The notes beneath the pieces were generated by a model. It worked only from the letters and a program-made list of their open reading frames with translations. It did no database searches and was not told where the DNA came from. Below are positions 2,864 through 52,135 of a stretch of 64,000 nucleotides of DNA, one piece after another. Numbering within the stretch: the stretch's first letter is position 1; each line of letters opens with the position of its first letter. Made by a program: the position numbers and the translations under genes. This DNA is from Baekduia soli (GTDB taxonomy: Bacteria > Actinomycetota > Thermoleophilia > Solirubrobacterales > Solirubrobacteraceae): contig NZ_CP042430.1 of the NCBI RefSeq assembly GCF_007970665.1, forward strand, positions 5,146,001 through 5,210,000, given 5' to 3'.

Positions 2864-3997
2864 TCACGACAGCCCGTAGGGCCGGTAGGGCCGGTAGATC
2901 ATGTGCTCGATCTGGGCCATGCCGCGCTGCCCACCGGGCCCCTCGATCGCCGACGGGTACTCGCAGACGCCGAGGCGGCGCTCGACGGGCACGTGCGCGG
3001 GCCCGGCCACGACCGCGGGGTCGTCGACGCGGAAGCGGTCGGCCTCCACGTGCTCGGCACCGCGCCATGAGCCGGGCGGCAGCCCGTCCTGCCAGCCGCG
3101 CACGTAGCCGAAGCCCTGCGCGCACGCCGGGTCGGCGACGACCTCGAAGGCATAGGCGTGCTCGCCTCCGGCGACGTCGGTCAGCGTGAAGCTCCCGCCC
3201 GTCAGCCGCCGGGTGCCGGGCACGTAGCGGAACGCGTGGCGCGCGCCCGTGAGCGGGATCTCGGTGCCGTCGGCGGTCAGCAGGCGGCCGTCGAAGTCAA
3301 GCACCCGGCCGTCGGCGTCCTCGTGCATCGCGAACATGCCGCGGTGGTCGCCGACCTCGAACGGGATCCAGATGCGCATCGCCCGCGGGTCCCCCGCCGA
3401 GCGCTCGACGCCCTTGACGGGGATCGCCGGGCCCATCGAGTGCCGGATCCCCCAGGAGTGGTCGCGGTCGCCGTACCACGCGTCGACGGCGATCTCCTCG
3501 CCGTCGACGGCCATGACGCCGCTGACGCGCGAGAGCTGCGTGTAGCGCAGCACGTGGTTGATGAGCCGGCCCTGCCGATGGTGGATGTCGGGCGCCTCGA
3601 AGAACGCCGGCGAGCTGGCGGTGACTTCGACGTCGAACGTGACCCCCGTGGCGTTCTCGGCCAGCCGCAGGCGCTGGCGGCGCATGGGCTCCAGGATCTC
3701 CATCGACACCGGGCCCACCTCCAGCACGTCGACGCTCGGGCGCAGCGCGCGCGAGGCGCGTACCGTGCGCTGCTCGCCTCCGGCGATCGCCCCCGCGTAG
3801 CCGTCCATGACGTTCATGTTGGCGTACAGGCGCAGCCCGAGGTACGCGAACCGCCCCGGGGCGAAGAACCCGAAGTAGTACCCGTCGTTGAACCGCGGGT
3901 CCGAGGTCGCGGGCACCGGCAGCGGGGCCGGCGCCTGGTGGAAGGGGTAGTCGTCGACGGCGCTCAGCCCGAGCTCGCCGTCGGGCGGTCCTACCAT
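2864..3997 (-). CDS. DUF7064/DUF7065-like (CrtC/AttH-type beta-barrel) protein
   Basis: The 377-residue product resembles a family of paired beta-barrel, lipocalin-like domains distantly related to hydroxyneurosporene synthase (CrtC/AttH). Marks include YYFGFFAPGRFAYLGLRLYAN, WYGDRDHSWGIRHS and a C-terminal VRGWQDGLPPGSW segment. The Asp/His/Trp cluster DRDHSWG is the most likely functional site. The ATG at 3997 lies inside the 3' end of the LLM gene (7-base overlap), which fixes the start and implies translational coupling. A diverged paralogue lies at 35810-36886, again next to an LLM oxidoreductase. CrtC-fold relatives hydrate or bind hydrophobic isoprenoids, so handling of a terpenoid-like product is possible but unproven. 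Confidence 0.65.
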   Translation of the reverse strand: MVGPPDGELGLSAVDDYPFHQAPAPLPVPATSDPRFNDGYYFGFFAPGRFAYLGLRLYANMNVMDGYAGAIAGGEQRTVRASRALRPSVDVLEVGPVSMEILEPMRRQRLRLAENATGVTFDVEVTASSPAFFEAPDIHHRQGRLINHVLRYTQLSRVSGVMAVDGEEIAVDAWYGDRDHSWGIRHSMGPAIPVKGVERSAGDPRAMRIWIPFEVGDHRGMFAMHEDADGRVLDFDGRLLTADGTEIPLTGARHAFRYVPGTRRLTGGSFTLTDVAGGEHAYAFEVVADPACAQGFGYVRGWQDGLPPGSWRGAEHVEADRFRVDDPAVVAGPAHVPVERRLGVCEYPSAIEGPGGQRGMAQIEHMIYRPYRPYGLS

Positions 3998-5070
3998 CGG
4001 CAGGCCGCCGGGATCGACGGGTGGTCGGGCGCCGGGTACTTCCTGTGGATGGGCTGGACGACCTCCTCGCCGAAGCGCTGGATCTGCTCGCGGGCGGCCT
4101 CCATCGACGGGCCGGTCGGCATCCGGAAGCGTAGGGTGAAGTAGTCGACGCCGAACTCCTCGTGGTAGCGCTCGAGCTGCTCGATGCACTGCTGCGGGCT
4201 GCCCATGATCGTGTGCGGGGCGGCCGCCTCCGGCGTGATGTCGGACTCGCTCTGGAAGTCCGGGTGGTGGGTGAAGATGCCCTGGCGGAAGTAGAAGCGC
4301 ATCTCCTCGACGAAGTGCGTGCCGAACTGCGCCGCGGCGTCCTCGAACGTGTCGGCCACCCAGCCGTCGCGCATGAGCACGATGTAGGGCGTCTTGCCCA
4401 GCTCCTCCGCGCGCTCGCGGTAGGTGCCGACCTGCTGCTCCCAGACCTCCTTCATCAGCGGGAACGGGTCGCACGTCCAGCACTCGCCGTAGTCGGCCGA
4501 GCGCCGGATGGCCGCGGGGACCGCGTTGCCGCCGCCCCAGATCGGCCAGCCGCCCTCCTGGTGGGGCTGGGGCGCGAGGAGGCCCTGCTGGACCTGCCAG
4601 TACTTGCCGTCGAAGTCGAAGCGCTCGCCCGCGAACGCCAGCTGCCAGATCTTGATGGCCTCCTGGAAGCGGCCGAGCATGTGGTCCTGCGGAACGCCGA
4701 ACTGCTGCCAGTACCCGGGGTGGAACCCGCGCGACAGCGTCGTGTACAGCCGGCCCTGCGACAGGTTGTCGATGACCGCGTACTGCTCGGCGGCCTTCAT
4801 GGGGTGCAGGAGCGTGTGGATGTGCGTGAACGTGCCGATCGCGACCCGGTCGGTCTCGCGGGCGAGGATCGTCAGGATCTGCTCCGGGCCGGGGAAGTAG
4901 CACTCCGTGCGCCCGTGGCGGTCGGGCACCTGCAGCGAGTGGAACCCGGCGCGCTCGGCGACGATGCCCTCCTCGATCATCGCCTCCATCGTGTCGTGGG
5001 CGTCCTGCGGGGTGGGCATGGGCTGCTCGTAGCCGCCCTTGTGCAGATCGATCAGGTACCCGATCCTCAT
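3991..5070 (-). CDS. LLM-class flavin-dependent oxidoreductase
   Basis: This is a 359-residue luciferase-like (beta/alpha)8 barrel of the bacterial luciferase / F420-dependent family, which oxidises or monooxygenates small organic substrates with FMN or F420. The N-terminus starts MRIGYLIDLHKGGYEQP. Typical segments follow: ILTILARETDRVAIGTFTHI, the cofactor-region YAVIDNLSQGRLYTTLSRGF, and the C-terminal IVLMRDGWVAD and TIMGSPQQCIEQLERYHEEF. The ATG at 5070 is preferred over an upstream start because GGAGGAG lies just before it. It heads the operon with the DUF7064-like and 388-aa genes. The operator at 5140 lies upstream. It resembles the LLM at 36898, which also pairs with a DUF7064-like gene. 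Confidence 0.88.
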   Translation of the reverse strand: MRIGYLIDLHKGGYEQPMPTPQDAHDTMEAMIEEGIVAERAGFHSLQVPDRHGRTECYFPGPEQILTILARETDRVAIGTFTHIHTLLHPMKAAEQYAVIDNLSQGRLYTTLSRGFHPGYWQQFGVPQDHMLGRFQEAIKIWQLAFAGERFDFDGKYWQVQQGLLAPQPHQEGGWPIWGGGNAVPAAIRRSADYGECWTCDPFPLMKEVWEQQVGTYRERAEELGKTPYIVLMRDGWVADTFEDAAAQFGTHFVEEMRFYFRQGIFTHHPDFQSESDITPEAAAPHTIMGSPQQCIEQLERYHEEFGVDYFTLRFRMPTGPSMEAAREQIQRFGEEVVQPIHRKYPAPDHPSIPAACRW

Positions 5071-5139
5071 CCGTCTCCTCCATCTCCTCGACCATGCGTG
5101 GGGCACCGTGGGACGGGACCCGGGACGGTCGCTCTTCTA

Positions 5140-5151
5140 TCAAGCGTTTGG
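5140..5151. promoter_or_regulatory. KstR2-like operator A
   Basis: TCAAGCGTTTGG matches 9 of the 10 fixed positions of CCAANCGNTTGG. It lies between the divergent LLM operon and the PEP-utiliser pair. On the plus strand a TAGGGT hexamer at 5177-5182 could be the -10, which puts the operator beside the -35. Confidence 0.7.
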
Positions 5152-5211
5152 CAGGTTGTCACGCGATGGCGCGTGCTAGGGTCGCGCCCTCGGAGCCGAC
5201 CAGGAGGGGCT

Positions 5212-5550
5212 GTGACGACCATCGGACAGGGGCAGGTGGCCTTCGCGGGCGCCGTGGAGGGCGTCGTGGCCCACGCCGACGACGTCCAGCAGGTCTTCGG
5301 CCTGATGCAGCGCCCCGACCTCGACGAGGTCATCCTGCTCACCGAGTCGGCCTCGGCCACCGCCGTGGTGCCGCTGCTGGCCAAGGTCCGCGGCGTCATC
5401 TGCCGCTCGGGCGGCATGACGTCGCACCTCGCGCTGGTCTCGCGCGAGTTCGGGCTGCCCTGCATCATGGGCGCCGAGCTCGAGCCCGACGAGGTGCTCG
5501 AGGGCCGCCGGGTGCGCCTGGCCGAGGACGGGACCATCGCGCTTGCCTGA
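5212..5550 (+). CDS. PEP-utilising enzyme mobile (phosphohistidine) domain protein
   Basis: This 112-residue protein is a free-standing version of the swivelling phosphohistidine domain of PEP synthase and pyruvate phosphate dikinase. The signature RSGGMTSHLALVSREFGLPCIMG contains the His that carries phosphate. The GTG start at 5212 has AGGAGGGG at 5202-5209. The next gene encodes the matching PEP-binding barrel and begins 8 bases before this gene ends, so the two are translationally coupled and probably form one enzyme. The nucleotide-binding (ATP-grasp) domain of the full-length enzymes is missing here. Inference: a split phosphotransferase whose third component is elsewhere, or one that transfers phosphate only between PEP and a partner. 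Confidence 0.85.
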   Translation: MTTIGQGQVAFAGAVEGVVAHADDVQQVFGLMQRPDLDEVILLTESASATAVVPLLAKVRGVICRSGGMTSHLALVSREFGLPCIMGAELEPDEVLEGRRVRLAEDGTIALA

Positions 5551-6415
5551 CCGCAGGCCGCGCGTCCTGGTCAACCTCTCGCTGCCCCACCGGGCCGCCG
5601 CGGCCGCGCAGCTGCCGGCCGACGGCGTCGGGCTCATGCGCGCCGAGTTCCTCGCGCTGAGCACCGGCCGCCACCCCGGCGCCCTGCTGGCCGACGGCGG
5701 CCAGGACGTCTTCGTCGCGTTCTTCCGCGACGCGCTGCAGACCGTCGGCGCCGCGTTCCACCCCCGCCCCGTCACGTTTCGCGCCTCGGACCTGAAGTCC
5801 AACGAGTACCGCGGGCTGGAGGGCGGCGAGCGCTTCGAGCCAGCGGAGGCCAACCCGATGCTCGGCCGCCGCGGCGTCTACCGCTATCTCCTGCGCCCGG
5901 AGGAGTTCGCGCTCGAGCTCCAGGCGCTGCGCGAGGTCCGCGAGGGCGGCCTGGACAACCTGCGCCTCATGCTGCCGTTCGTGCGGACCGTGGATGAGCT
6001 GCGCGCCGCGCGCGCCGTCGTCGCGCAGGCCTTCGGCGACGTCCCTCCGCCGCCGGTGTGGGCGATGGCCGAGGTGCCGGCCACCGCGCTGCTGCCCCAG
6101 GCCTTCGCCGCCGAGGTCGACGGGATCTCCATCGGCTCCAACGACCTGGCCCAGCTCGTGCTGGGCATCGACCGCGACTCGCCCGAGCTCAGCGCGCACT
6201 ACGCCGCCGGCGACCCCGCGGTGCTCGAGGCCATGCGCCGCATCGTCGACGGCGCCCACGCGGTCGGGCGTCCCGTGTCGATCTGCGGCGACGCGCCGGC
6301 CCATGACCACGAGCTCCTGCGGGCCCTGGTGGACATGGGCATCGACGCGATCTCGGTGGTCCCCGACGCGGTGGCCGAGACCGTGGCGTTCCTCGACGGG
6401 CAACGCCGGCCCTAG
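5543..6415 (+). CDS. PEP-binding TIM-barrel protein (PpsA C-terminal-like)
   Basis: The 290-residue product matches the C-terminal PEP/pyruvate-binding barrel of PEP synthase. It starts with the typical entry VLVNLSLPHRAAAAAQLPADGVGLMRAEF. It also carries LMLPFVRTVDELRAAR, the Mg-binding EVDGISIGSNDLAQLVLGID, and the active-site Cys in VSICGDAPAHDHELLRALV. The likely start is TTG at 5543, which overlaps the stop of the phosphohistidine gene by 8 bases. A later start would cut into the conserved entry strand. Together with 5212-5550 it forms a two-subunit split of a normally single-chain enzyme. It ends beside a two-sided terminator facing the beta-oxidation operon. Confidence 0.85.
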   Translation: MPDRRPRVLVNLSLPHRAAAAAQLPADGVGLMRAEFLALSTGRHPGALLADGGQDVFVAFFRDALQTVGAAFHPRPVTFRASDLKSNEYRGLEGGERFEPAEANPMLGRRGVYRYLLRPEEFALELQALREVREGGLDNLRLMLPFVRTVDELRAARAVVAQAFGDVPPPPVWAMAEVPATALLPQAFAAEVDGISIGSNDLAQLVLGIDRDSPELSAHYAAGDPAVLEAMRRIVDGAHAVGRPVSICGDAPAHDHELLRALVDMGIDAISVVPDAVAETVAFLDGQRRP

Positions 6416-16454: not shown

Positions 16455-16495
16455 CGTCCGGACGCAGGCCGGACGATCGGGAGCATCGGAATCTA

Positions 16496-16528: not shown

Positions 16529-16936
16529 ATGAGTGAGCAGGAGCGTCACGCCCAGGCCCTGACCGCCTACTTCGACGGCATCAACGGGGAGGACTACGAG
16601 GCCGTGGCGGCCCTGTTCGCCGCCGACGGCGAGCTCATCGCCCCGGGGACCGAGCCGCGCCGCGGTCCGGCGGCCATCGCGGAGTACTTCGCCGCGGCCC
16701 TGGCCCCCTACCCCGAGCACGTCGACGACCCCACCCGCTTCATCCACGCCGGGGACACGGTCACCGTCGAGATCACGTTCACCGGCCGGATGGCCTCGGG
16801 CGCACCGATGAACTTCGACGCCGTCGACGTGTTCGACTTCGACGAGCAGGGCCTCATCCGCCGGCTGTCGTCCTGGTACGACTCCCACGGCGTCCGCGCC
16901 CAGCTGCGTCGCGCCCGCGAGCAGGACACGGCCTGA
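16529..16936 (+). CDS. SnoaL-like (NTF2 fold) protein
   Basis: A 135-residue SnoaL-like protein: HAQALTAYFDGINGEDYEAVAALFAADGELIAPGTE, then RRGPAAIAEYFAAAL and a beta-sheet with VTVEITFTGRMASG and a C-terminal SWYDSHGVRAQL. Family members isomerise or hydrate small polycyclic or acyl substrates. The ATG at 16529 gives a short leader, with the promoter and operator E2 directly upstream. Its stop overlaps the ATG of the TetR gene by one base (TGATG), so regulator synthesis is coupled to this protein. It leads an operon of SnoaL / TetR / SDR / VOC. Confidence 0.8.
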   Translation: MSEQERHAQALTAYFDGINGEDYEAVAALFAADGELIAPGTEPRRGPAAIAEYFAAALAPYPEHVDDPTRFIHAGDTVTVEITFTGRMASGAPMNFDAVDVFDFDEQGLIRRLSSWYDSHGVRAQLRRAREQDTA

Positions 16937-17562
16937 TGGCTGTCGCCCGCGCGGACACCGACCGCCCGCGCCGGCGCGACGTCGAGGTACTGGCCGCGGC
17001 GACCAAGGTGTTCTACGAGCGTGGGTACGCGGACGCGACGGTGCAGGACGTCGCCGACGAGCTCGGCATCCTCAAGGGCAGCCTCTACTACTACATCAAG
17101 ACGAAGGAGGACCTCCTCTTCCGCCTGCTCGACGAGGCCCACGAGCACGTCGAGACGGTCCGGCGCGAGGCGGCGGTCCGCGACGACCTCCCGCCTCTGG
17201 AGAAGCTCACCCGCTACGTCCGCGGCCAGGTCGCCTACAGCGTGGCCAACCTCCCGCGGGTGGCGATCTACTACCAGGACGTCGACCGGCTCAGCGCCCC
17301 CCGGCTGCGCGACATCCACCGCCGCCGCAAGGCCCACGAGGTGTGGGTGGTCGACCTCATCCGGCTCGCGCAGGAGCGCGGGGAGGTCGGCGCCGACCTC
17401 GATCCCGAGCTGCTGGCCAACTGCATGTTCGGCGCGTTGATCTGGCTCTACCGCTGGCACCGGCCCGACAGTGGCAAGGCGCCCGAGGACGTCGTGGACC
17501 ACGTCACGCGCTACGCCCTGGCCGGGATCACGGGAGCGGCCGTCCCGAGGCCGGGGGGCTGA
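16936..17562 (+). CDS. TetR-family repressor, candidate master regulator (KstR2-like)
   Basis: A 208-residue TetR protein. The DNA-binding domain covers about residues 15-62, with the helix-turn-helix in ATVQDVADELGILKGSLYYYIKTKEDLL. The C-terminal part is all-helical, resembling the ligand domain of KstR/KstR2-type regulators that sense CoA thioesters. It is the only TetR gene in the window and lies behind a perfect copy of the island-wide palindrome. I infer that it binds CCAANCGNTTGG and is released by an acyl-CoA pathway intermediate. The link to KstR2 rests on operator geometry and general domain pattern, not on an alignment. Confidence 0.82.
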   Translation: MAVARADTDRPRRRDVEVLAAATKVFYERGYADATVQDVADELGILKGSLYYYIKTKEDLLFRLLDEAHEHVETVRREAAVRDDLPPLEKLTRYVRGQVAYSVANLPRVAIYYQDVDRLSAPRLRDIHRRRKAHEVWVVDLIRLAQERGEVGADLDPELLANCMFGALIWLYRWHRPDSGKAPEDVVDHVTRYALAGITGAAVPRPGG

Positions 17563-38945: not shown

Positions 38946-41249
38946 CTAGACCTGGCCTGGCCTCAGGTCCCACCGCGGCGGCGCGCCGTCCACGACGATC
39001 TCGGTCTGGAGCAGCCGGCCCGTCTCCGGGCAGATCACCTCGCGGAACTGCACCTCGTGGTCGGTGTAGATCGCCGGGTCGCGCAGCGTCGGGTTGCCCT
39101 CGTCGAGCGGCATGTCGCGGATGAGCGCCTTGGCCTTGTAGTTGCCCTCGGCCGGCCCGAGATCCACGTCGCCGGCGTGGAACCGCCCGTCGGCGATGTC
39201 GATGTACTCGCTCACGACGCCGTCGGGCGGCACCGTCCCGTCGCCCTCCCCCGCGCAGTCCTCGTCGCCCGTCCACGGCCGGCCCTCGGCCAGGCGCTGC
39301 CCGATGACCGTGGCCCGCCGGGCGGCGGTGGCCTCGGCGTCGACGGCCAGGTCCTCGCCCTCGCCGGTGAGCACCACGCCGTAGGCCTTCAGCCCCCAGT
39401 CGGCGGTCACGCGGCCCAGCAGGACGTCCTCGCGGACCATCTCCGGGTCGCGCTCCAGCGGGTCGCCGTAGCCGCCGGCGCCCGCCCAGCTGAAGATCCA
39501 CAGGTCGTCGCGTTCGGTGAAGCGGTCGAAGGACTTGGCCGGGACCCAGTCGGTCTCGCCCGCCAGCTGCTCGGGTTCGGTCGGCGTGGTGCCGGTGCGC
39601 TCCATGTAGCCGGGCACGTCGGCGCCCTTGATGAGCCGGAACGCGTTGGTCGACGTCGGGTAGCCGCCGAACAGGCCGGGGCCCGGGACGGCGACCTCGG
39701 CGCCCACGGTGACCCAGTTGATGCGGTCGGTCTTGTGGCTGAGCACCGCCCCCTCGCAGCCGTTGCCGCCGCGGAACTTGCCGGCGCCGCCGGAGTTCGC
39801 CACCTCGCGGCGCCACAGGTAGATGATGGGGTAGAAGAGCTCGTTGTCCTCCACGTTGGGGATCGTGGACTGCAGGTCCCACGGCCAGCCGCCCGTGTCC
39901 TGGCCGTCGCGCCAGGGCAGCGCCGCGAGCGCGGCGCCCACGGGATCGTTGAGGAACGAGACGTACTGGCTGCCGCGCTGGTCCAGGCCCGAGATCGCGT
40001 TGACCGGGTAGCCGAGGACGCCCATGCAGCTCATGACCTCCTCGCGCAGGCGCTCGTCGGTCGACGAGAACAGCATCTTGGAGATGACCAGGCCGGCCAT
40101 GCCGATCGAGTGCAGCAGCGTCGTCGGCGGGCCGCCGGAGACCGCCGCCGGCCGCGTCGCACAGCTGATCGTGCCCGGCACGACCTCGAACTCGATGTTC
40201 CGCATGGCGCCCTCCAGCGCGAACATCTGGTCGAAGAGCATCGTCGATGCGAGCATGCTGATGACCGCGCCCTTCCACGCCGCCAGGCACGCATTCAGCG
40301 CGCCCTGCTGCTCGGCCGAGCCCTCGTTGGAGAACACGAGCTTGCCGCCGCGCTTGGTCAGCTTGACCCGGTTGCGGTACAGGCCGCGGTCGCCGGGGAG
40401 CTTGACCTCCATCCAGCCCTCCTCGGTCCACGTGCCGTCCGGGATGCTCTCCAGGCGCTTGGAGAACGCGGCCGCGGAGTCGTCCTGGACCTTGCGCATC
40501 GTCGCCTTGACGGTGCTCGCCCCGTAGCGGGCGACGAGGGCCAGGACGCGGTCACGGGCGACGTTGCATCCGGTCACCTGCGAGCGCAGGTCCAGCGCCA
40601 CGAGGTCGCCCAGGCGCGAGTTGCGCGTGTAGAGCTCCTCGATGTCGCGGCGGATCTCGCCGCCCTCGACGATCTTGACCGGCGGGTAGCAGGGGACCTC
40701 CCAGTAGACGTCCTCGGCCATCGGGTTGAACCCGCCCGGTGCGGTGCCGCCGAGGTCCCATTGGTGCAGCGTGTTGGAGACCCAGCAGAAGAGCTTGCCG
40801 TCGACGAACACCGGGCAGGCGATGACGACGTCGGGCTGGTGCGTCGTCCCGATCCACGGGTCGTTGGTGAGGTACATGTCGCCCTCGTGGATGCCGGGCT
40901 TCTCGGACCGGTACTCGAGCGTCCACTTCACCGCGGTCGCGCTGCTGACCGCCAGGTACAGGTTGTACTTGCCGAAGAAGACGTAGCCGCCCTCCTCGTC
41001 GAGGATCGCCGGGTTGAAGTCGTGCCCGTAGGCGCAGATCGGCGACCCCGACGTGCGGATGATCGACTGCCCGTGCTCGACGTTGACGTTCCAGAGGGCG
41101 TGGCGCAGCACCTCGTGCGTCACGGGGTCGACGGTCTCGTCGGCGTCGGTGTGCAGCTGCAGCGAGGGGTGGATGTCGAGCTGGTCGGGCGCGATGTAGG
41201 GGTAGACGCTGCCGTCCCACTTGATGGTCGTGTCGACGTCGGTGGCCAT
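38946..41249 (-). CDS. Hydantoinase B / acetone carboxylase alpha-like subunit
   Basis: A 767-residue protein of the HyuB family. The conserved opening VTHEVLRHALWNVNVEHGQSIIRTSGSPICAYGHDFN, the metal/substrate core YLTNDPWIGTTHQPDVVI and the late segment WRREVANSGGAGKFRGGNG are typical. Members act with HyuA partners in ATP-dependent hydrolysis of cyclic amides (hydantoin, 5-oxoproline) or ATP-dependent carboxylation of acetone and acetophenone. Its C-terminus carries a single ICPETGR Cys rather than the double Cys pairs of the other copy at 47573. It begins 38 bases after hydantoinase A. Carboxylation of a ketone intermediate fits the island as well as amide hydrolysis does. Confidence 0.9.
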   Translation of the reverse strand: MATDVDTTIKWDGSVYPYIAPDQLDIHPSLQLHTDADETVDPVTHEVLRHALWNVNVEHGQSIIRTSGSPICAYGHDFNPAILDEEGGYVFFGKYNLYLAVSSATAVKWTLEYRSEKPGIHEGDMYLTNDPWIGTTHQPDVVIACPVFVDGKLFCWVSNTLHQWDLGGTAPGGFNPMAEDVYWEVPCYPPVKIVEGGEIRRDIEELYTRNSRLGDLVALDLRSQVTGCNVARDRVLALVARYGASTVKATMRKVQDDSAAAFSKRLESIPDGTWTEEGWMEVKLPGDRGLYRNRVKLTKRGGKLVFSNEGSAEQQGALNACLAAWKGAVISMLASTMLFDQMFALEGAMRNIEFEVVPGTISCATRPAAVSGGPPTTLLHSIGMAGLVISKMLFSSTDERLREEVMSCMGVLGYPVNAISGLDQRGSQYVSFLNDPVGAALAALPWRDGQDTGGWPWDLQSTIPNVEDNELFYPIIYLWRREVANSGGAGKFRGGNGCEGAVLSHKTDRINWVTVGAEVAVPGPGLFGGYPTSTNAFRLIKGADVPGYMERTGTTPTEPEQLAGETDWVPAKSFDRFTERDDLWIFSWAGAGGYGDPLERDPEMVREDVLLGRVTADWGLKAYGVVLTGEGEDLAVDAEATAARRATVIGQRLAEGRPWTGDEDCAGEGDGTVPPDGVVSEYIDIADGRFHAGDVDLGPAEGNYKAKALIRDMPLDEGNPTLRDPAIYTDHEVQFREVICPETGRLLQTEIVVDGAPPRWDLRPGQV

Positions 41250-41287
41250 GGGTTCTCGGTCCTTGTCGGTTGCGGTGGGGCGGGCGG

Positions 41288-43420
41288 TCAGGCGGACGCG
41301 GTGGCGTGGGTGCCGGTGGATCCCGAGCCGGCCTCGGTGCCGACGTCGATGAGGACGCTGCCGAGCTCGTCCAGGCGCGCGGAGGCGCCCGGAGGCACGA
41401 CGACGGTCGTGTCGGGGAACTCGAGGATCGCCGGGCCGTCGACCTCGGCGGCGGGCGAGAGCCGCGAGCCGTCGAAGATGTCGGTCGGCGTGAACGCGCC
41501 GTGCTCGCGCCAGTAGACGTCGCGGCGGCCGACGGGCTCGGTGTCGCTGCGGTCGATCGGCGGCGGCACCGGCGTGCGCACCTTGCCGCGGGCCAGGAGC
41601 TTGAAGAGGCCGATCGACGTGCCGGCCCCGACGAACGCCGAGCCCTTGCCGTAGATCTCCTCGTAGCGGGCGATGAACCGGCCGACCTGCTCCTCGGCGT
41701 CCTGCGCGGTCAGCGTGCCGCCGGGCACCGGGACCTCGACCTGGTGGATCTGCAGCGAGAACTTCATCTCGACCAGGCGGGTCAGCTCGATGTCGGCCTC
41801 GGCGAAGCCCTCGGCCGTCAGCTGCTCGCGCGCGGAGGCCTCCATCTGGGCGAAGACCTCGTTCATGCGTTCGTGCGAGAACGGCGCGATGAGGACCTCG
41901 GAGTGCTCGCGCACGTGCAGGACGTCGGACGTCATGACGCCCAGGGCCGACCAGGTCGAGGCCAGGTCGCCGAGCGGGATGACGACCTGCTGGGCGCCGA
42001 GCTCGCGGGCGAAGGCCACCGCGTGTGCCGCGCCGGCGCCGCCGAACGCGTAGATGACGAAGTCGCGCGGGTCGCGGCCGCGCTCGACGGTCATCTGGCG
42101 CATGAGGTCGGCCATCTGGGATTCGACGATGCGCAGCGCGCCGTCGGCGGCCGCCACCGGCTCCAGGCCGATCCCGGAGGCCACGCGCTCCACGGCGGCC
42201 AGGGCGCCGTCGCGGTCCAGCTCGAGCTCGCCGCCGAGGAAGTTGTCGGGGTTGTAGCGGCCCAGGACCGCGTCGCAGTCGGTGACGGTCGGCTCGGTGC
42301 CGCCGCGGCCGTAGCAGACGGGCCCGGGCAGGGCGCCCGCGCTCTGGGGCCCCACGCGCATCGTCTGGGAGTGGTCGTCGACCCAGAGCAGCGACCCTCC
42401 GCCGGACCCGATGGACTCGATGTCCACCCGCGGCATGAAGAAGGTGTACTGGTTGATCACGGTCTCCGACGAGGTGACCGGGTCACCGTCGACGATGATC
42501 CCCACGTCGAACGACGTGCCGCCCATGTCGCAGGCGATGACGTTGGGGTGGCCCATGCGCTGCGCGAGGTACGCGGCGCCCGCGACGCCGCCGACCGGGC
42601 CGGAGGCGATCGTGAAGAGCGGGTGGCGTGCGGCCTCCTCGGCGTGCACCACGCCGCCCGCGGCCTGCATGATGAGCAGCGGGTTCGTGTAGCCGCGCTC
42701 GGTCGTGACGCGGTCGACCTGCTGGATGTAGCTCGAGGTGGCCGGCCCGATGAAGGCGTTGATGGCCGCCGCGGCGGTGCGCTCGTACTCGCCGGGCTTG
42801 GCGATGAGCTCGTGGGCGCAGGAGATGAGCACCCCGGGGGCGAGCTCCTCGATCATCGCCTTGACCCGCAGCTCGTGGTCGGCGTTGACGAAGCCCCAGA
42901 GGAACGACACGGCGATCGCCTCGACGCCGTCGGCCACGAGCTCGGAGATCGCGGTGCGGACCTCGTCCTCGTTGAGCTCGAGCAGGACGTCTCCGGCCCA
43001 GTCCGTGCGCTCGGAGACCTCCTTGATGCGCGTGCGCGGGACGATCGGCTCGGGCTTCTTGTGGCGCGAGACGTGCAGCAGCTCGTCGATCGTCAGGCCG
43101 GCCGAGCGCCCGGCCGAGCGCATGATGATCAGCGCGTCGCCGTGGCCGCGGGTCGTGATGAGCCCCGTCCTGGCGCCCTTCATCTGCACGAGCGCGTTCG
43201 TGCCCACCGTGGTGCCGTGCAGCAGCAGGTCGGTGGAGCCCAGGAAGTCGGCCGTCGAGAGGCCCAGCCGCCCGGCGACGGTGTCGATCGCGTTGAGGAA
43301 GCCCTCGGCGAAGTTGGGCGGCGTGGAGGACACCTTGGCCAGCGTGATGGCGCCCGTATCGTCGAGGACCACGCAGTCCGTGAACGTCCCGCCGATGTCG
43401 ATCCCGCAGAAGTAGCCCAT
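41288..43420 (-). CDS. Hydantoinase A / acetone carboxylase beta-like subunit
   Basis: A 710-residue ATP-binding subunit of the HyuA family. The N-terminal phosphate-binding GIDIGGTFTDCVVLDDTG is typical of the actin/hexokinase-like ATPase fold. It is followed by LLLHGTTVGTNALVQMKGARTGLITTRGHGD, the second nucleotide segment VIACDMGGTSFDVGIIVDG and IGSGGGSLLWVD. The ATG at 43420 is directly preceded by the family-typical short leader, and operator I lies 25 bases upstream. It is the first gene of the six-gene operon that ends at 35298. Its partner is the hydantoinase B at 38946. Confidence 0.92.
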   Translation of the reverse strand: MGYFCGIDIGGTFTDCVVLDDTGAITLAKVSSTPPNFAEGFLNAIDTVAGRLGLSTADFLGSTDLLLHGTTVGTNALVQMKGARTGLITTRGHGDALIIMRSAGRSAGLTIDELLHVSRHKKPEPIVPRTRIKEVSERTDWAGDVLLELNEDEVRTAISELVADGVEAIAVSFLWGFVNADHELRVKAMIEELAPGVLISCAHELIAKPGEYERTAAAAINAFIGPATSSYIQQVDRVTTERGYTNPLLIMQAAGGVVHAEEAARHPLFTIASGPVGGVAGAAYLAQRMGHPNVIACDMGGTSFDVGIIVDGDPVTSSETVINQYTFFMPRVDIESIGSGGGSLLWVDDHSQTMRVGPQSAGALPGPVCYGRGGTEPTVTDCDAVLGRYNPDNFLGGELELDRDGALAAVERVASGIGLEPVAAADGALRIVESQMADLMRQMTVERGRDPRDFVIYAFGGAGAAHAVAFARELGAQQVVIPLGDLASTWSALGVMTSDVLHVREHSEVLIAPFSHERMNEVFAQMEASAREQLTAEGFAEADIELTRLVEMKFSLQIHQVEVPVPGGTLTAQDAEEQVGRFIARYEEIYGKGSAFVGAGTSIGLFKLLARGKVRTPVPPPIDRSDTEPVGRRDVYWREHGAFTPTDIFDGSRLSPAAEVDGPAILEFPDTTVVVPPGASARLDELGSVLIDVGTEAGSGSTGTHATASA

Positions 43421-47572: not shown

Positions 47573-49771
47573 TCAGAAGGCCTCCCCGGGCTCGTCGCGC
47601 GTCTCGCCCAGCCGGATGTCGTGGCCGGGCTCCTCCCCCGCCTCGTAGTTCTCGACCTCGAGCATCGAGCCGCACGACGGGCAGGCGAACTCCCACGTCG
47701 TGAGCTGGAGGACCGACGCCTCGCGGACCTTGGCGCCCAGGTGGGCGGCGCGCTCGTGCAGCGGCCAGCTGCGCGTCGCCGCGTGGGCCTTCCAGTTCTC
47801 GGTGACCGGCCCGATAGGCTGGTCGCAGTGGCTGCAGCAGAAGCTGCGCACGCCCTCGGCGTCGGCGACCTTCAGCGGGGCGCGGTACTCGAGCATCTCG
47901 GCCGGCTCGTGGCTGGGCTCGCGGCCGAGGCGTTCGGCGCGCAGCTCACGCCGGCGGGCCGCGGTGGCCGCGTCGTCCGGCGTGCCGTCGGCCGTGAGGA
48001 CCACGCCGTAGACGTCGGGCACGACGTCGGCGGTGATCATCCCGTTCTCGAGGTCCTCGGCCACCCGCCACGGCTCGCGGAACAGCGGGTCGCCCAGGCC
48101 CGAGCCGCCGGCCCCGAACGTCCGGGTGATGTCGTCGGCGGCGATCTGCAGGTTCGTCGCGTGCGACGGGGGCAGCGTGCTGCCCTCCGTCAGGTCCTCG
48201 GCGATGAACCGCGCGCCGAGGTCGGTCGGCGAGCCGGCCTCCACCCCGCCCTTGAAGATGAGGTTGCCGGTCCCGCCGCCCGGGTACCCGCCGCCCGGCG
48301 CCCGCGAGGGCACGCGCGTGACGTTGGAGAACACCGTCATCTGGGCGCCGGAGGACATGCCCGCCAGCTTCCAGGCCGTGTCGATGCCCATCCCCCCGCG
48401 GCGGAACCCGTGGCCGCCCGAGTTGGGGCACAGGCGCCGGAAGTAGTGCAGCGCGGGCGCGGTCTCCTCGAGCTCGATGTCGAGCATGCGCGAGCCGGTC
48501 ATGTCCTCGTAGCAGCCGCAGTCGCGGCCGTCGACGTTGGACTGCGCGCCCAGGCCGGTGCCCAGCGAGTCGAAGGACACCCACATCGTCGGGCCGCCGG
48601 CGTCGGTGATCCCGAAGACGACGTTGTGCGGCGCGACGTTGGCGCCGCAGCCCGCCGAGCGGGCGCGGATCGCCGGGTTCTCGCTCAGGCCGACGGCCTT
48701 CTGCAGCGCGGAGTGGAACGCGCGCAGCACCTTGGTGCCCGACTCCATGTGGCCGGCCGAGGTCGCCGCGTTGATGCTCGGGTTGAGCATCGTGCCCGGC
48801 GCCGACTTGATGATCTTCAGCGGCCGCGTCACGCCCGCGTTGATCGGCAGGTCGGGCATGAGCGTGCGGATCACGTCGCCGACCACCCAGCCCAGCAGGG
48901 CGGCCCGGGTGGCGTTGATGAAGCAGTTGGCCTCCGGCGGCGAGTCGGAGAGGTCGATGAGCAGCTCGTCGCCGCGCACGGTGACCGACACCGACAGGCG
49001 CGACAGCGTCTCCACGCCGTGGCCGTCGTACTCGACCCAGTCGTGGGCGGTGAACGTGCCGTCGGGCAGCTCGGCGATGCGCTGGCGCGCGTGCTGCTCG
49101 CTGAGCTCGATGTTGTACTCCGCGTACTCCTTGACGGTCTGCGCGCCGTAGCGCTCGAAGACCTCCTGCAGGCGCGAGTAGGTGGTGTTGTTGGCCGCCA
49201 CGCACGAGCGCAGGTCGTTCAGCGACTCGGCCATCCGGACGTTGGCCAGGTAGAGCTTGACGAACTGCTCGTCCCAGACGCCCTCGGAGACGACCTTGGT
49301 CAGCGGGAAGATGAAGCCCTCGCCGTAGCGGTCCCATGAGCCCGGGATCCAGCCGCCGGGCGTCAGGCCGCCGATGTCGAGGACGTGCACCGACGAATAG
49401 GCCCACGCCATGAGCTCGTCGCCGGCGAAGACCGGGGTGATCACGCTGGGGTCGGCGGCGTGCAGCGGCTGCGCGGTGTACGGGTCGTTGGCGGCGAAGT
49501 GGTCGCCGGGGCGCACCGTCGAGAGGTCGACGTTGGCCAGGATGTCGCGCAGGGCGTTGACGGCCGAGACGAAGTGCGGCGGCAGGTAGCTCGTGAAGGC
49601 GATGACCTCGCCCTTGGCCGACACCAGCGACGTGGAGAAGTCATTGGCCTCGGTCACGATCGGCGAGCCCGACGTGCGGTTCAGCGTGATGGCGGCCTCC
49701 TCGCAGGCGGCCTCCATGCGGCGGTGGATGACCTTGGCGAGGATCGGGTCGTACGTGGTGGTGGTGCTCAC
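47573..49771 (-). CDS. Hydantoinase B-like subunit with C-terminal cysteine-pair domain
   Basis: A 732-residue HyuB-family protein: IHRRMEAACEEAAITLNRTSGSPIVTEANDFSTSL, HFAANDPYTAQPLHAADPSVITPVF, and the late SGGHGFRRGGMGIDTAWKL and TFGAGGSGLGDPLFREPW. From about residue 640 a domain of about 90 residues follows with CCSHC (Cys 646, Cys 649) and CPSC (Cys 697, Cys 700), a likely zinc site. This resembles a fused acetone carboxylase gamma-type subunit and is absent from the copy at 38946. The GTG at 49771 has AAGGAG upstream. Together with the A subunit at 49811 it looks like an acetone-carboxylase-like system rather than a plain hydantoinase. The ketone is unknown. Confidence 0.88.
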   Translation of the reverse strand: MSTTTTYDPILAKVIHRRMEAACEEAAITLNRTSGSPIVTEANDFSTSLVSAKGEVIAFTSYLPPHFVSAVNALRDILANVDLSTVRPGDHFAANDPYTAQPLHAADPSVITPVFAGDELMAWAYSSVHVLDIGGLTPGGWIPGSWDRYGEGFIFPLTKVVSEGVWDEQFVKLYLANVRMAESLNDLRSCVAANNTTYSRLQEVFERYGAQTVKEYAEYNIELSEQHARQRIAELPDGTFTAHDWVEYDGHGVETLSRLSVSVTVRGDELLIDLSDSPPEANCFINATRAALLGWVVGDVIRTLMPDLPINAGVTRPLKIIKSAPGTMLNPSINAATSAGHMESGTKVLRAFHSALQKAVGLSENPAIRARSAGCGANVAPHNVVFGITDAGGPTMWVSFDSLGTGLGAQSNVDGRDCGCYEDMTGSRMLDIELEETAPALHYFRRLCPNSGGHGFRRGGMGIDTAWKLAGMSSGAQMTVFSNVTRVPSRAPGGGYPGGGTGNLIFKGGVEAGSPTDLGARFIAEDLTEGSTLPPSHATNLQIAADDITRTFGAGGSGLGDPLFREPWRVAEDLENGMITADVVPDVYGVVLTADGTPDDAATAARRRELRAERLGREPSHEPAEMLEYRAPLKVADAEGVRSFCCSHCDQPIGPVTENWKAHAATRSWPLHERAAHLGAKVREASVLQLTTWEFACPSCGSMLEVENYEAGEEPGHDIRLGETRDEPGEAF

Positions 49772-49810
49772 GGTTCTTGGCTCCTTGAGGCGGCGCGGGG
49801 GCGGCGGGCG

Positions 49811-51934
49811 TCAGCCCGGCAGGCCGGCGGGATCGGCGACGGCGGCGGGCGGTGCTGCCGCGGGTGCGGCGACGTCGATGGTGAACACGTAGTTGCGCAG
49901 CCCGTCGACCTCCAGCCGGGCCCCGGGCGGGACCAGCAGCGTGGTGTCGACGTCGTCGACGAGCGCGGGGCCGTCGACGACCGCCCCGGGGGCGAGGGCC
50001 GGCCCGTCGTGGACGGCGGCCTGGATCGTCGTGTCGCCCAGGCGCACCTCGCGGTGGGCGGAGGGCTCGGGGACGCTGGTGGCCAGGTCGTCGCCGGCCG
50101 ACGGCGTCGGCGGCTTGGGCGTGATGCCCGAGGCCACGACGCGGGCGGTGTGCAGCTCGATCGGGAAGCCGTCCCACGCGCTGCCGGGGCCGTAGACCCG
50201 CTCGTACTCCTGCACGAACCGGGTCGAGAGGTCCTCGCGGTCCTCGTCGCGGACCTCCTCCCCGGGCCATGTCATCGAGATCTCGAAGGCCTGCCCGGCG
50301 AACTTCACGTCGGCCTCCCGGCGCACGACGATGTCGTCGTCGGAGAAGCCCTCGTGGCGCAGGGCGGCGACCGCCCGCTCCTCCAGCCCGTCGTAGAGCT
50401 CGTTGATCGTGGCGGTCTCGCCCGCCGAGAAGATCCACTGCGCGGTCGTCGACTCGGCGTGGATCGCGTCGGCGAACAGCAGCCCGTAGGCCGAGAACGT
50501 CGCCGCCGCGCCCGGCATGACCAGGCGGCGGATCCCGAGGTCGCGGCAGACCTCGCCCAGGAACAGGCCCGAGCCGCCGCCGTAGCCCACGACGGTGAAG
50601 TCGCGCGGGTCGTAGCCGCGGCCGAGGGAGACCTTCTCGATCGCGGTGCCCATCTGGGTCACGGCGATGTGGTGGAAGCCCGCGGCGACCTCCATGAGGT
50701 CCTGGCCCAGCTGGTCGGCCAGCGGCTGCAGCGCCGCCTTGGCCGCGTCGACGTCGAGGGTCACCGTGCCGCCCCAGAACTTCAGCGGGTCGATGAGGCC
50801 GAGCACGAGGTTGGCGTCGGTGATGGTGGGCGCGGTGCCGCCGTTGCCGTAGCAGGCCGGCCCGGGGTAGCCGCCCGCGCTGTGCGGGCCCATCTGCGGC
50901 AGGCCGCGGTCGTCGATCCAGCAGATGGAGCCGCCGCCCGCGCCGATGGCGTGGATGTCGATGATCGACAGGCCGGTGAGCAGCCGGTTGATCGTCGTGC
51001 GGTGCGCATAGGCCGGCCGGCCCTCGCGGATCAGCGCGGTGTCGAAGCTCGTGCCGCCAAGGTCGGCGGTGATGATGTTGCCCTCGCCCAGGACCTTGGC
51101 GAAGTGGGTGGCGGCGACGACGCCGCCGACCGGGCCGGAGTGGCTGAGGTGGATCGGCTCGGCCATCGCCTCCGTCGGGCTGATGTGGCCGCCCATGGAC
51201 TGCATGAACGAGATGCGCCCCTCGCGCAGGCCCAGCTCCTGGGTGCGCGCGGTGAGCTTGCCGATGTAGGTCTCGGCGCCCTCGGAGACGAACGCGTTGA
51301 GCAGCGCCGTGTTCATCCGCTCGTACTCGCGGATGCGCGGGTAGATGTCGCAGGAGAGCGTGACGAACAGGTCGGGGTACAGCTCGGCGATGATCTCGCC
51401 GGCGCGGCGCTCGTGGACGGGGTGGCGGAAGGACCACAGGAAGCAGACGGCGATCGCGTCGACCCCCTGCTCGACGAGGCGCGCGACCTCGCGGCGGACG
51501 TCGTCCTCGTTGAGCTCGACGAGCACCTCGCCGCTGCGGCTGACGCGCTCGTCGATCTCGGCGACGTGGCGCTGGCGCACGATGTCGGGCGGCCGCGTCT
51601 CCTTCTGGAGGTCGAGCTGGATCTCGCGGATGCCGCGGTGGATGTAGATCGACTGCTTGAAGCCCCGGGTGGTGAGCAGGCCGACGTTGCGGCCCTTGCC
51701 CTGGGCGATGCTGTTCGTGACGACGGTCGTGCCGTTGACGAACGCGTCGCACTCGGCCATGAGCGCCTCGAGCGACGTGCCCAGCTCGCCGGCCGCGTTG
51801 GAGACCGCGGCGGTGACGCCCTCCGTGTAGTCCTTCGGCGTCGTCAGGGCCTTGGCCCGGACGATGCCGCCCGCCTCGTCTGCGACGACGACGTCGGTGA
51901 AGGTTCCGCCGATGTCCACTCCGACTCGATACAT
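49811..51934 (-). CDS. Hydantoinase A-like ATP-binding subunit
   Basis: A 707-residue HyuA/acetone carboxylase beta-type protein: MYRVGVDIGGTFTDVVVADEAG, AFVNGTTVVTNSIAQGKGRNVGLLTTRGFK, IITADLGGTSFDTALIREG and IGAGGGSICWIDDRGLPQMGPHSAGGYPGPACYG. All nucleotide-binding segments are kept. The ATG at 51934 has GGGAAGGGC upstream; the longer frame (to 52036) has no ribosome site and unlike composition, so it is rejected. It is cotranscribed with the hydantoinase B copy 39 bases downstream. The 201 bases before it hold no copy of the island operator. The LuxR regulator gene upstream may control it. Confidence 0.9.
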   Translation of the reverse strand: MYRVGVDIGGTFTDVVVADEAGGIVRAKALTTPKDYTEGVTAAVSNAAGELGTSLEALMAECDAFVNGTTVVTNSIAQGKGRNVGLLTTRGFKQSIYIHRGIREIQLDLQKETRPPDIVRQRHVAEIDERVSRSGEVLVELNEDDVRREVARLVEQGVDAIAVCFLWSFRHPVHERRAGEIIAELYPDLFVTLSCDIYPRIREYERMNTALLNAFVSEGAETYIGKLTARTQELGLREGRISFMQSMGGHISPTEAMAEPIHLSHSGPVGGVVAATHFAKVLGEGNIITADLGGTSFDTALIREGRPAYAHRTTINRLLTGLSIIDIHAIGAGGGSICWIDDRGLPQMGPHSAGGYPGPACYGNGGTAPTITDANLVLGLIDPLKFWGGTVTLDVDAAKAALQPLADQLGQDLMEVAAGFHHIAVTQMGTAIEKVSLGRGYDPRDFTVVGYGGGSGLFLGEVCRDLGIRRLVMPGAAATFSAYGLLFADAIHAESTTAQWIFSAGETATINELYDGLEERAVAALRHEGFSDDDIVVRREADVKFAGQAFEISMTWPGEEVRDEDREDLSTRFVQEYERVYGPGSAWDGFPIELHTARVVASGITPKPPTPSAGDDLATSVPEPSAHREVRLGDTTIQAAVHDGPALAPGAVVDGPALVDDVDTTLLVPPGARLEVDGLRNYVFTIDVAAPAAAPPAAVADPAGLPG

Positions 51935-52135
51935 GTGCCCTTCCCGGGGTCCTGGTGGTCTCTGGGCGCGGCTCGACAGCCACCTGGCCGGCCCGCTGCC
52001 CATCGTGCTCCGCGGGCGCGCCGCTGACCACCGCACGTTCGGAGGTGCCCAGCCCGTCCGTTCGGAGGGTCTCGGGCCGCGCGGGCGCCGGCGGCCTCCA
52101 TGGCGGCGCGCCCCGGACGGCGCGCGCGGCGCGTC

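Follow-up and report, generated by a model that had tools for sequence, protein, structure and literature searches.

The window, a 64,000-nucleotide stretch of the Baekduia soli genome, carries two overlapping plus-strand genes that each encode a single domain. The product of the first, P0001 (5212..5550), is a lone phosphohistidine swivel domain of 112 aa with the motif GGMTSH (PF00391, E 1.4e-14), and that of the second, P0002 (5543..6415), is a lone PEP/pyruvate-binding barrel of the PEP synthase type, 290 aa long and with a Cys at residue 248 (PF02896, E 6.7e-63). The genes overlap by 8 bp and Pfam finds no further domain in either product, which confirms a preliminary description of the two domains as residing on separate, overlapping genes. 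Translation of the barrel starts at TTG and that of the swivel at GTG, with AGGAGGGG ahead of it; since the swivel frame is open far upstream, forming an ORF of 462 aa, its start was assigned from the ribosome-binding site and from homologues.

The best solved relative of P0002 among PDB sequences is the PEP synthase 9dae (E 1.3e-67). Its match to TIGR01418 (E 9.6e-82) far exceeds that to the enzyme I family (5.2e-33), which places the barrel with PEP synthases. Four PEP synthase blocks are retained in the alignment with 9dae, RASDLKSNEYRGL, NPMLGRRGVYRY, GSNDLAQ and SICGD, the last of which contains the Cys. In PEP synthase, blocks of this kind act in the binding of PEP and in acid catalysis. 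P0002 also fits what we take to be the PROSITE-type pattern of PEP enzymes (DGISIGSNDLAQLVLGIDR).

Divergent from the swivel gene, on the minus strand, lies a luciferase-like monooxygenase gene (LLM, 3991..5106; PF00296, E 5.8e-43), followed on the same strand by a gene for a DUF7065-like protein (2867..3961), whose weak PF23213 match is below the cut-off, and by P0006 (1687..2853), which encodes a 388-aa orphan protein, hereafter P6. The surrounding cluster further encodes SnoaL-like, 3-hydroxyacyl-CoA dehydrogenase, acyl-CoA dehydrogenase, thiolase, CoA ligase and P450 proteins. Two hydantoinase A/B pairs lie at 38946-43420 and 47573-52036.

A candidate operator, ATCAAGCGTTTGGC (5139..5152), occupies the divergent promoter region between the LLM and swivel genes, with two mismatches to the palindrome ACCAANCGNTTGGT. 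Palindromes within 3 mismatches of ACCAAnCGnTTGGT occur 31 times in the window against a mean of 10.0 in shuffled sequences, and none of 100 shuffles reached 31. It was the looser patterns that yielded this excess, the exact intergenic 14-mer matching only itself. Sites at 5139, 10644, 15078 and 16495 (exact), among others, lie near several gene starts. Because a good number of these sites fall within genes or represent other palindromes, a regulon governed by the palindrome is suggested rather than shown; of the "Operator A" regulon proposed earlier, the palindrome excess and the site at 5139-5152 hold, and membership in a regulon stays at the level of a suggestion. The exact palindrome at 16495 is close to a TetR gene (16936-17562).

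The preliminary description had also observed that the ATP-grasp part of such enzymes is missing nearby, and no PPDK_N (PF01326) partner indeed lies inside the window; the ATP-grasp_5 domain of an acyl-CoA synthetase (62-1405) belongs to a different family. Genome-wide, PPDK_N occurs in three long proteins only, all encoded outside the window: a PpsA-like protein near C1:4342 kb, an RPH-like protein near C1:75 kb and a complete PPDK near C1:3699 kb. The whole-genome search for a lone PPDK/PPS N-terminal domain that had been proposed as a check thus turned up neither a lone PPDK_N gene nor an HpeI-like one. In the PpsA-like gene (L041 / G000:C1:4341249-4342138) the barrel is spread over two reading frames, so that the gene is frameshifted in this assembly; the frameshift may be real or a sequencing error.

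Conservation of the split pair

The same split is found in another genus of the family, in a metagenome-assembled genome of 83% completeness (G167), where the swivel is 62.5% and the barrel about 64.1-65% identical to those of the window. The genes are ordered LLM (minus strand), swivel, barrel and two P6 genes, all codirectional from swivel through P6, and the barrel stop and P6 start overlap by 1 bp. The LLM is 83.8% identical to its window counterpart and takes the same divergent position, and the P6 homologues directly behind the barrel are 36% and 57% identical to the window P6. The G167 barrel deviates from the PROSITE-type pattern of PEP enzymes that P0002 fits.

The pair is rare. Of 399 genomes of the class, 4 contain a match to the window swivel at E <= 1e-20; homologues occur in G167, in G113 and in a 78% complete MAG, G180, and a scan of genome contigs with the swivel alignment returned a single locus (L047). 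For the barrel, G167 holds the sole other lone copy among 201 genomes of the order, and across 396 genomes of the phylum (matches at E <= 1e-75) a short-frame barrel occurs in the window's own genome (G000) alone. Within the family, 2 of 146 genomes have lone barrels if the short frames of G445 (424 aa) and G450 (426 and 238 aa) are left aside; these score like PEP synthase barrels, and the 424-aa and 426-aa frames start less than 400 bases from a contig start. A short barrel in G020 (frame of 259 aa) was rejected as a PEP synthase broken by a frameshift in that assembly. The PF02896 matches of G113 fall in one frame of 1131 aa and another of 716 aa, with no lone barrel among them.

That the two genes are decayed, functionless pieces of an old PEP synthase was the concern attached to the preliminary description, which named as grounds for it a full-length partner elsewhere or absence of the pair from relatives. 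A full-length PpsA-like gene does exist in the genome, albeit frameshifted in this assembly. A tree of 31 barrels unites the two lone copies with 100/99 support and a branch of 1.21; the barrel of the genome's own PpsA groups with the other sampled PEP synthases, apart from that clade. Between the window and G167, codon positions 1 and 2 are 76% identical in both genes, against 45% and 54% at position 3, a contrast that reads as the mark of purifying selection. The motifs are intact, and every one of the 31 swivels inspected retains the His, as judged by pattern for 29 and by eye for L081 and L094. Since the lone barrels form a clade of their own and another genus shares the split, simple decay is highly improbable.

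P6 and the donor modules of its loci

The preliminary description, confined to the swivel and barrel, missed both P6 on the other strand, which is the likely acceptor protein, and those relatives in which an ATP-grasp protein stands in place of the barrel. P6 matches nothing above the cut-off in Pfam (the best, VMAP-M0 at E 0.014, is below its own), nothing in NCBIfam, no PDB sequence under E 0.3 and nothing in viral contigs; its family is not described in the libraries searched. Two AlphaFold2 models, built from three sequences, are of low confidence (pLDDT 68.5 and 66.9; pTM 0.71 and 0.68). Foldseek with the first returned no match at E <= 0.001, and VIA-align 2 with these low-confidence models gave a best Z of 5.0 (73 residues, rmsd 3.9) and one of 4.1 (89 residues, rmsd 4.9), RPH and PEP synthase not being among the VIA-align 2 matches shown. 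Aligned by hhalign with one RPH-like protein, the family scored a probability of 0.07%. Ser35, Arg98, Arg195 and Gly-Pro-Tyr 202-204 are invariant in all 22 aligned members, and Arg130 is retained in at least 90% of them; the invariant residues would suit a phosphate site.

Searching with P6 alone detected it in 15 of the 146 family genomes, in 6 of the 396 phylum genomes and in seven plasmid records, of which six are from Rhodococcus and the seventh is from Novosphingobium. Thirty loci found in this manner were compared (L054, L064, L078, L080-L101 and L108-L112); the window, L049 and L050, which were given or found by the swivel, were excluded, and plasmid matches H5 and H6 fall outside the set. 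Several loci are on short contigs, and since some genomes yield two or three, the 30 cannot be counted as independent lineages. With swivel and P6 profiles built from members of the same loci, 28 of the 30 show a swivel that is not part of an ATP-grasp frame; the gap is below 1 kb in 27, and in 9 the two are fused in one frame. No swivel is seen in L054 and L083, whose contigs measure 3.2 and 5.9 kb, and that of L100 is 8.1 kb from P6. With 4 PF00391 domains across the 5.2 Mb of the window's genome, chance adjacency should be rare. In G113 the P6 homologue directly follows the swivel, with no barrel in between. The window likewise holds swivel (5212-5550) and P6 (1687-2853) in one locus, here 2.4 kb apart and with P6 in a divergent operon instead of adjoining the swivel. 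The DUF7065-like protein, detected by its own profile, recurs in 10 of the 30 loci. Two of the loci, L098 and L101, are Rhodococcus plasmids that each bear three swivel-P6 pairs (one fused) and one PPDK.

What accompanies the swivel and P6 varies. In 15 of the 30 loci it is a PPDK-type ATP-grasp protein, termed here a truncated PPDK when ATP-grasp is found and a barrel is not found by its own profile in the locus. In one of these, L095 (G438), Pfam weakly detects part of a barrel on the same contig and frame (30.1 bits); the ATP-grasp match of L100 is partial, and the C-terminal part of the 856-aa ATP-grasp frame of L112 has no identification. Another locus, L054, carries a lone ATP-grasp of the PEP-synthase/RPH type, as does the genome G180. 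An ATP-grasp donor is thus in view in 16 of the 30 loci, no donor in 14, and a lone barrel in none. Near the window's swivel and P6 the candidate donor module is the PEP barrel, in the place of the ATP-grasp, and this version occurs in the window and G167 only. No truncated PPDK was found in these two genomes; PPDK_N in G167 is confined to a full-length PPDK with its barrel in the same 923-aa frame. At the level of gene content, therefore, the donor has been exchanged.

In a P6 tree of 30 domains selected from all copies, the window P6 pairs with one G167 copy (90/76) and then with G180 (100/100), and this group sits inside an eight-row clade with copies from truncated-PPDK systems (R008, G113). 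The simplest history would be that the ATP donor was lost and a module derived from PEP synthase took over, an ATP-grasp in G180 and a barrel in the window and G167. Absences in G167 and G180 are provisional, since both MAGs are incomplete.

A further family of about 200 aa, X200, adjoins the truncated PPDK and is fused behind P6 in several proteins (examples are L049:1939-2604, L097:13463-14059 and L101:20717-21325). The members tested have no match in Pfam or NCBIfam. X200 occurs in 16 of 20 P6 genomes and is absent from G000, G167, G180 and G449.

A proposed PEP-fed phosphotransferase and its alternatives

Several known enzymes share parts with the window pair. According to PMC12167813, PpsAB, CreHI and HpeHI comprise an ATP-grasp subunit and a subunit with a substrate domain and the swivel, these two-component phenol kinases lack the second substrate domain of PEP synthase and PPDK, and in RPH and HpeHI the swivel travels between donor and acceptor domains. 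The proposed system would resemble them in the use of a swivel His to carry phosphate to a small molecule within a catabolic cluster, and it does resemble them in its separate genes and in the carboxylase and phosphatase genes that accompany related P6 systems. They draw on ATP through the ATP-grasp subunit, however, and their swivel shares a chain with an RPH-type substrate domain, whereas the window has a PEP barrel and a 112-aa swivel gene with PF00391 alone, and P6 shows no detectable similarity to the one RPH-like protein tested. With no ATP-grasp subunit and a solitary swivel, the pair is not an HpeHI-type phenol kinase, and the phenylphosphate synthase relationship raised earlier is not supported as an assignment. 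RPH itself, similar in its phosphorylation of a small molecule via a swivel as proposed here, is a single chain with an ATP-grasp donor, and the RPH-like protein of this genome is encoded by a separate gene. PEP synthase has a barrel of the same type and a PF00391 swivel of the same superfamily, but the pair lacks ATP-grasp and is therefore not a PEP synthase; its domains are on two genes and its barrel is in a separate clade. Enzyme I of the PTS is likewise the model for a PEP barrel that would charge a swivel His without ATP, but the absence of its HPr-binding N-terminal domain means that the pair is not enzyme I, and the barrel is nearer to PEP synthase.

It is proposed that the pair works like swivel kinases, as part of a modular phosphotransferase of donor, swivel and acceptor protein in which the ATP donor is replaced by PEP, a reading to which we give about even weight. 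The replacement is proposed because the swivel and P6 of relatives adjoin an ATP-grasp protein. By analogy with RPH and HpeHI, the P0002 barrel would bind PEP and hand its phosphate to the His of the free swivel P0001, with release of pyruvate. The charged swivel would then dock on P6 and deliver its phosphate to an intermediate bound there, a compound of the surrounding catabolic pathway that bears a hydroxyl or enol group. As P6 has no recognisable fold, acceptor binding is assigned to it solely from its linkage to the swivel. Use of PEP would render the step irreversible and cost one PEP, where dikinases spend two ATP phosphate bonds. The comparison with relatives supports the earlier suggestion that the pair draws its phosphate solely from PEP and acts in catabolism, PEP being the presumed donor.

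Slightly short of even is the chance of the fuller form of this proposal, a PEP-driven small-molecule phosphotransferase of three free proteins: a lone barrel, a lone swivel and an acceptor from an undescribed family. It would be a PEP-fed counterpart of the ATP dikinases, with the donor module exchanged and swivel and acceptor kept, and P6 would found a kinase family in actinobacterial and some other catabolic clusters. In the open literature, preprints left aside, neither a swivel-P6 system nor a small-molecule swivel kinase driven by PEP was found to be described, which is weak evidence of novelty. If the proposal is true, swivel kinases are built from exchangeable parts, PEP can stand in for ATP as phosphate source with the acceptor unchanged, and the P6 family, which recurs next to swivels or in fusion with them in clusters for degradation, those of Rhodococcus plasmids included, gains a role; why degraders phosphorylate their substrates becomes testable in a new set of enzymes.

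Against the modular phosphotransferase stand the 2.4 kb and the divergent operon that set the window P6 apart from the swivel, the restriction of the barrel version to two genomes, one of them the incomplete G167 with its deviating barrel, and the lack of a recognisable fold in P6. The two P6 loci without a swivel, the distant swivel of L100 and the 14 loci with no donor in view also count against it, and the PpsA-like, RPH-like and PPDK proteins of the genome could charge the swivel in trans. A rather improbable alternative is a PEP synthase in pieces, whose swivel and barrel would convert pyruvate to PEP with the help of the ATP-grasp domain of the cell's PpsA or PPDK. The PEP-synthase type of the barrel, the ATP-grasp proteins elsewhere in the genome and the lone PEP-synthase/RPH-like ATP-grasp of the related G180 system would suit it. 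Yet a complete PPDK is already available for PEP synthesis, the swivel's relatives do without a barrel, and the genes belong to a catabolic cluster and follow P6, which would have no role in making PEP.

A regulatory phosphorelay like that of enzyme I, in which the PEP-charged swivel phosphorylates P6 or another protein and so reports the PEP/pyruvate state, is unlikely. A swivel and a PEP barrel do form the core of enzyme I, and none is seen in G000 or G167, since every PF02896 match in the two genomes belongs to PPDK, PpsA pieces or the lone barrel. But Pfam finds no enzyme I N-terminal domain on the swivel gene, the neighbours are degradation enzymes, and what P6 conserves is Arg and large catalytic-looking motifs, not a His. 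The system could also run in reverse, moving phosphate from a phosphorylated pathway intermediate to pyruvate and saving it as PEP, in line with the dephosphorylation once considered for this pair. PEP has one of the highest phosphate transfer potentials, too high for such a reaction to be driven by an ordinary phosphate ester; only an enol- or acyl-phosphate would serve. HpeH alone can take phosphate back from 4-phosphoacetophenone (PMC12167813); reverse use is nevertheless quite improbable here.

Phosphatases and carboxylases recur beside swivel-P6 systems (G180, pRB98 and G449). In G449 the swivel gene shares 4 bp with a hydantoinase B gene, and on the Rhodococcus plasmid pRB98 the swivel and P6 are followed by genes annotated as PPDK, biotin carboxylase, carboxyltransferase, thiolase and tyrosine-protein phosphatase. 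Such a succession of kinase, carboxylase and phosphatase is reminiscent of the Hpe pathway, in which, according to PMC9618137, the phenol of a ketone is phosphorylated, carboxylated and then dephosphorylated. Given that pathway and the hydantoinase, carboxylase and phosphatase neighbours, a phenolic or enolisable ketone would be a reasonable first guess for the substrate. In G180 a histidine phosphatase gene (PF00300, His_Phos_1; L048:1-525) has a 4 bp overlap with the swivel gene. The B subunit of the second hydantoinase pair in the window (47573-52036) ends in an acetone carboxylase gamma-like domain, and about 4 kb upstream of the window start there is a second LLM gene (L040:2752-3827), which lies in two frames and is possibly frameshifted.
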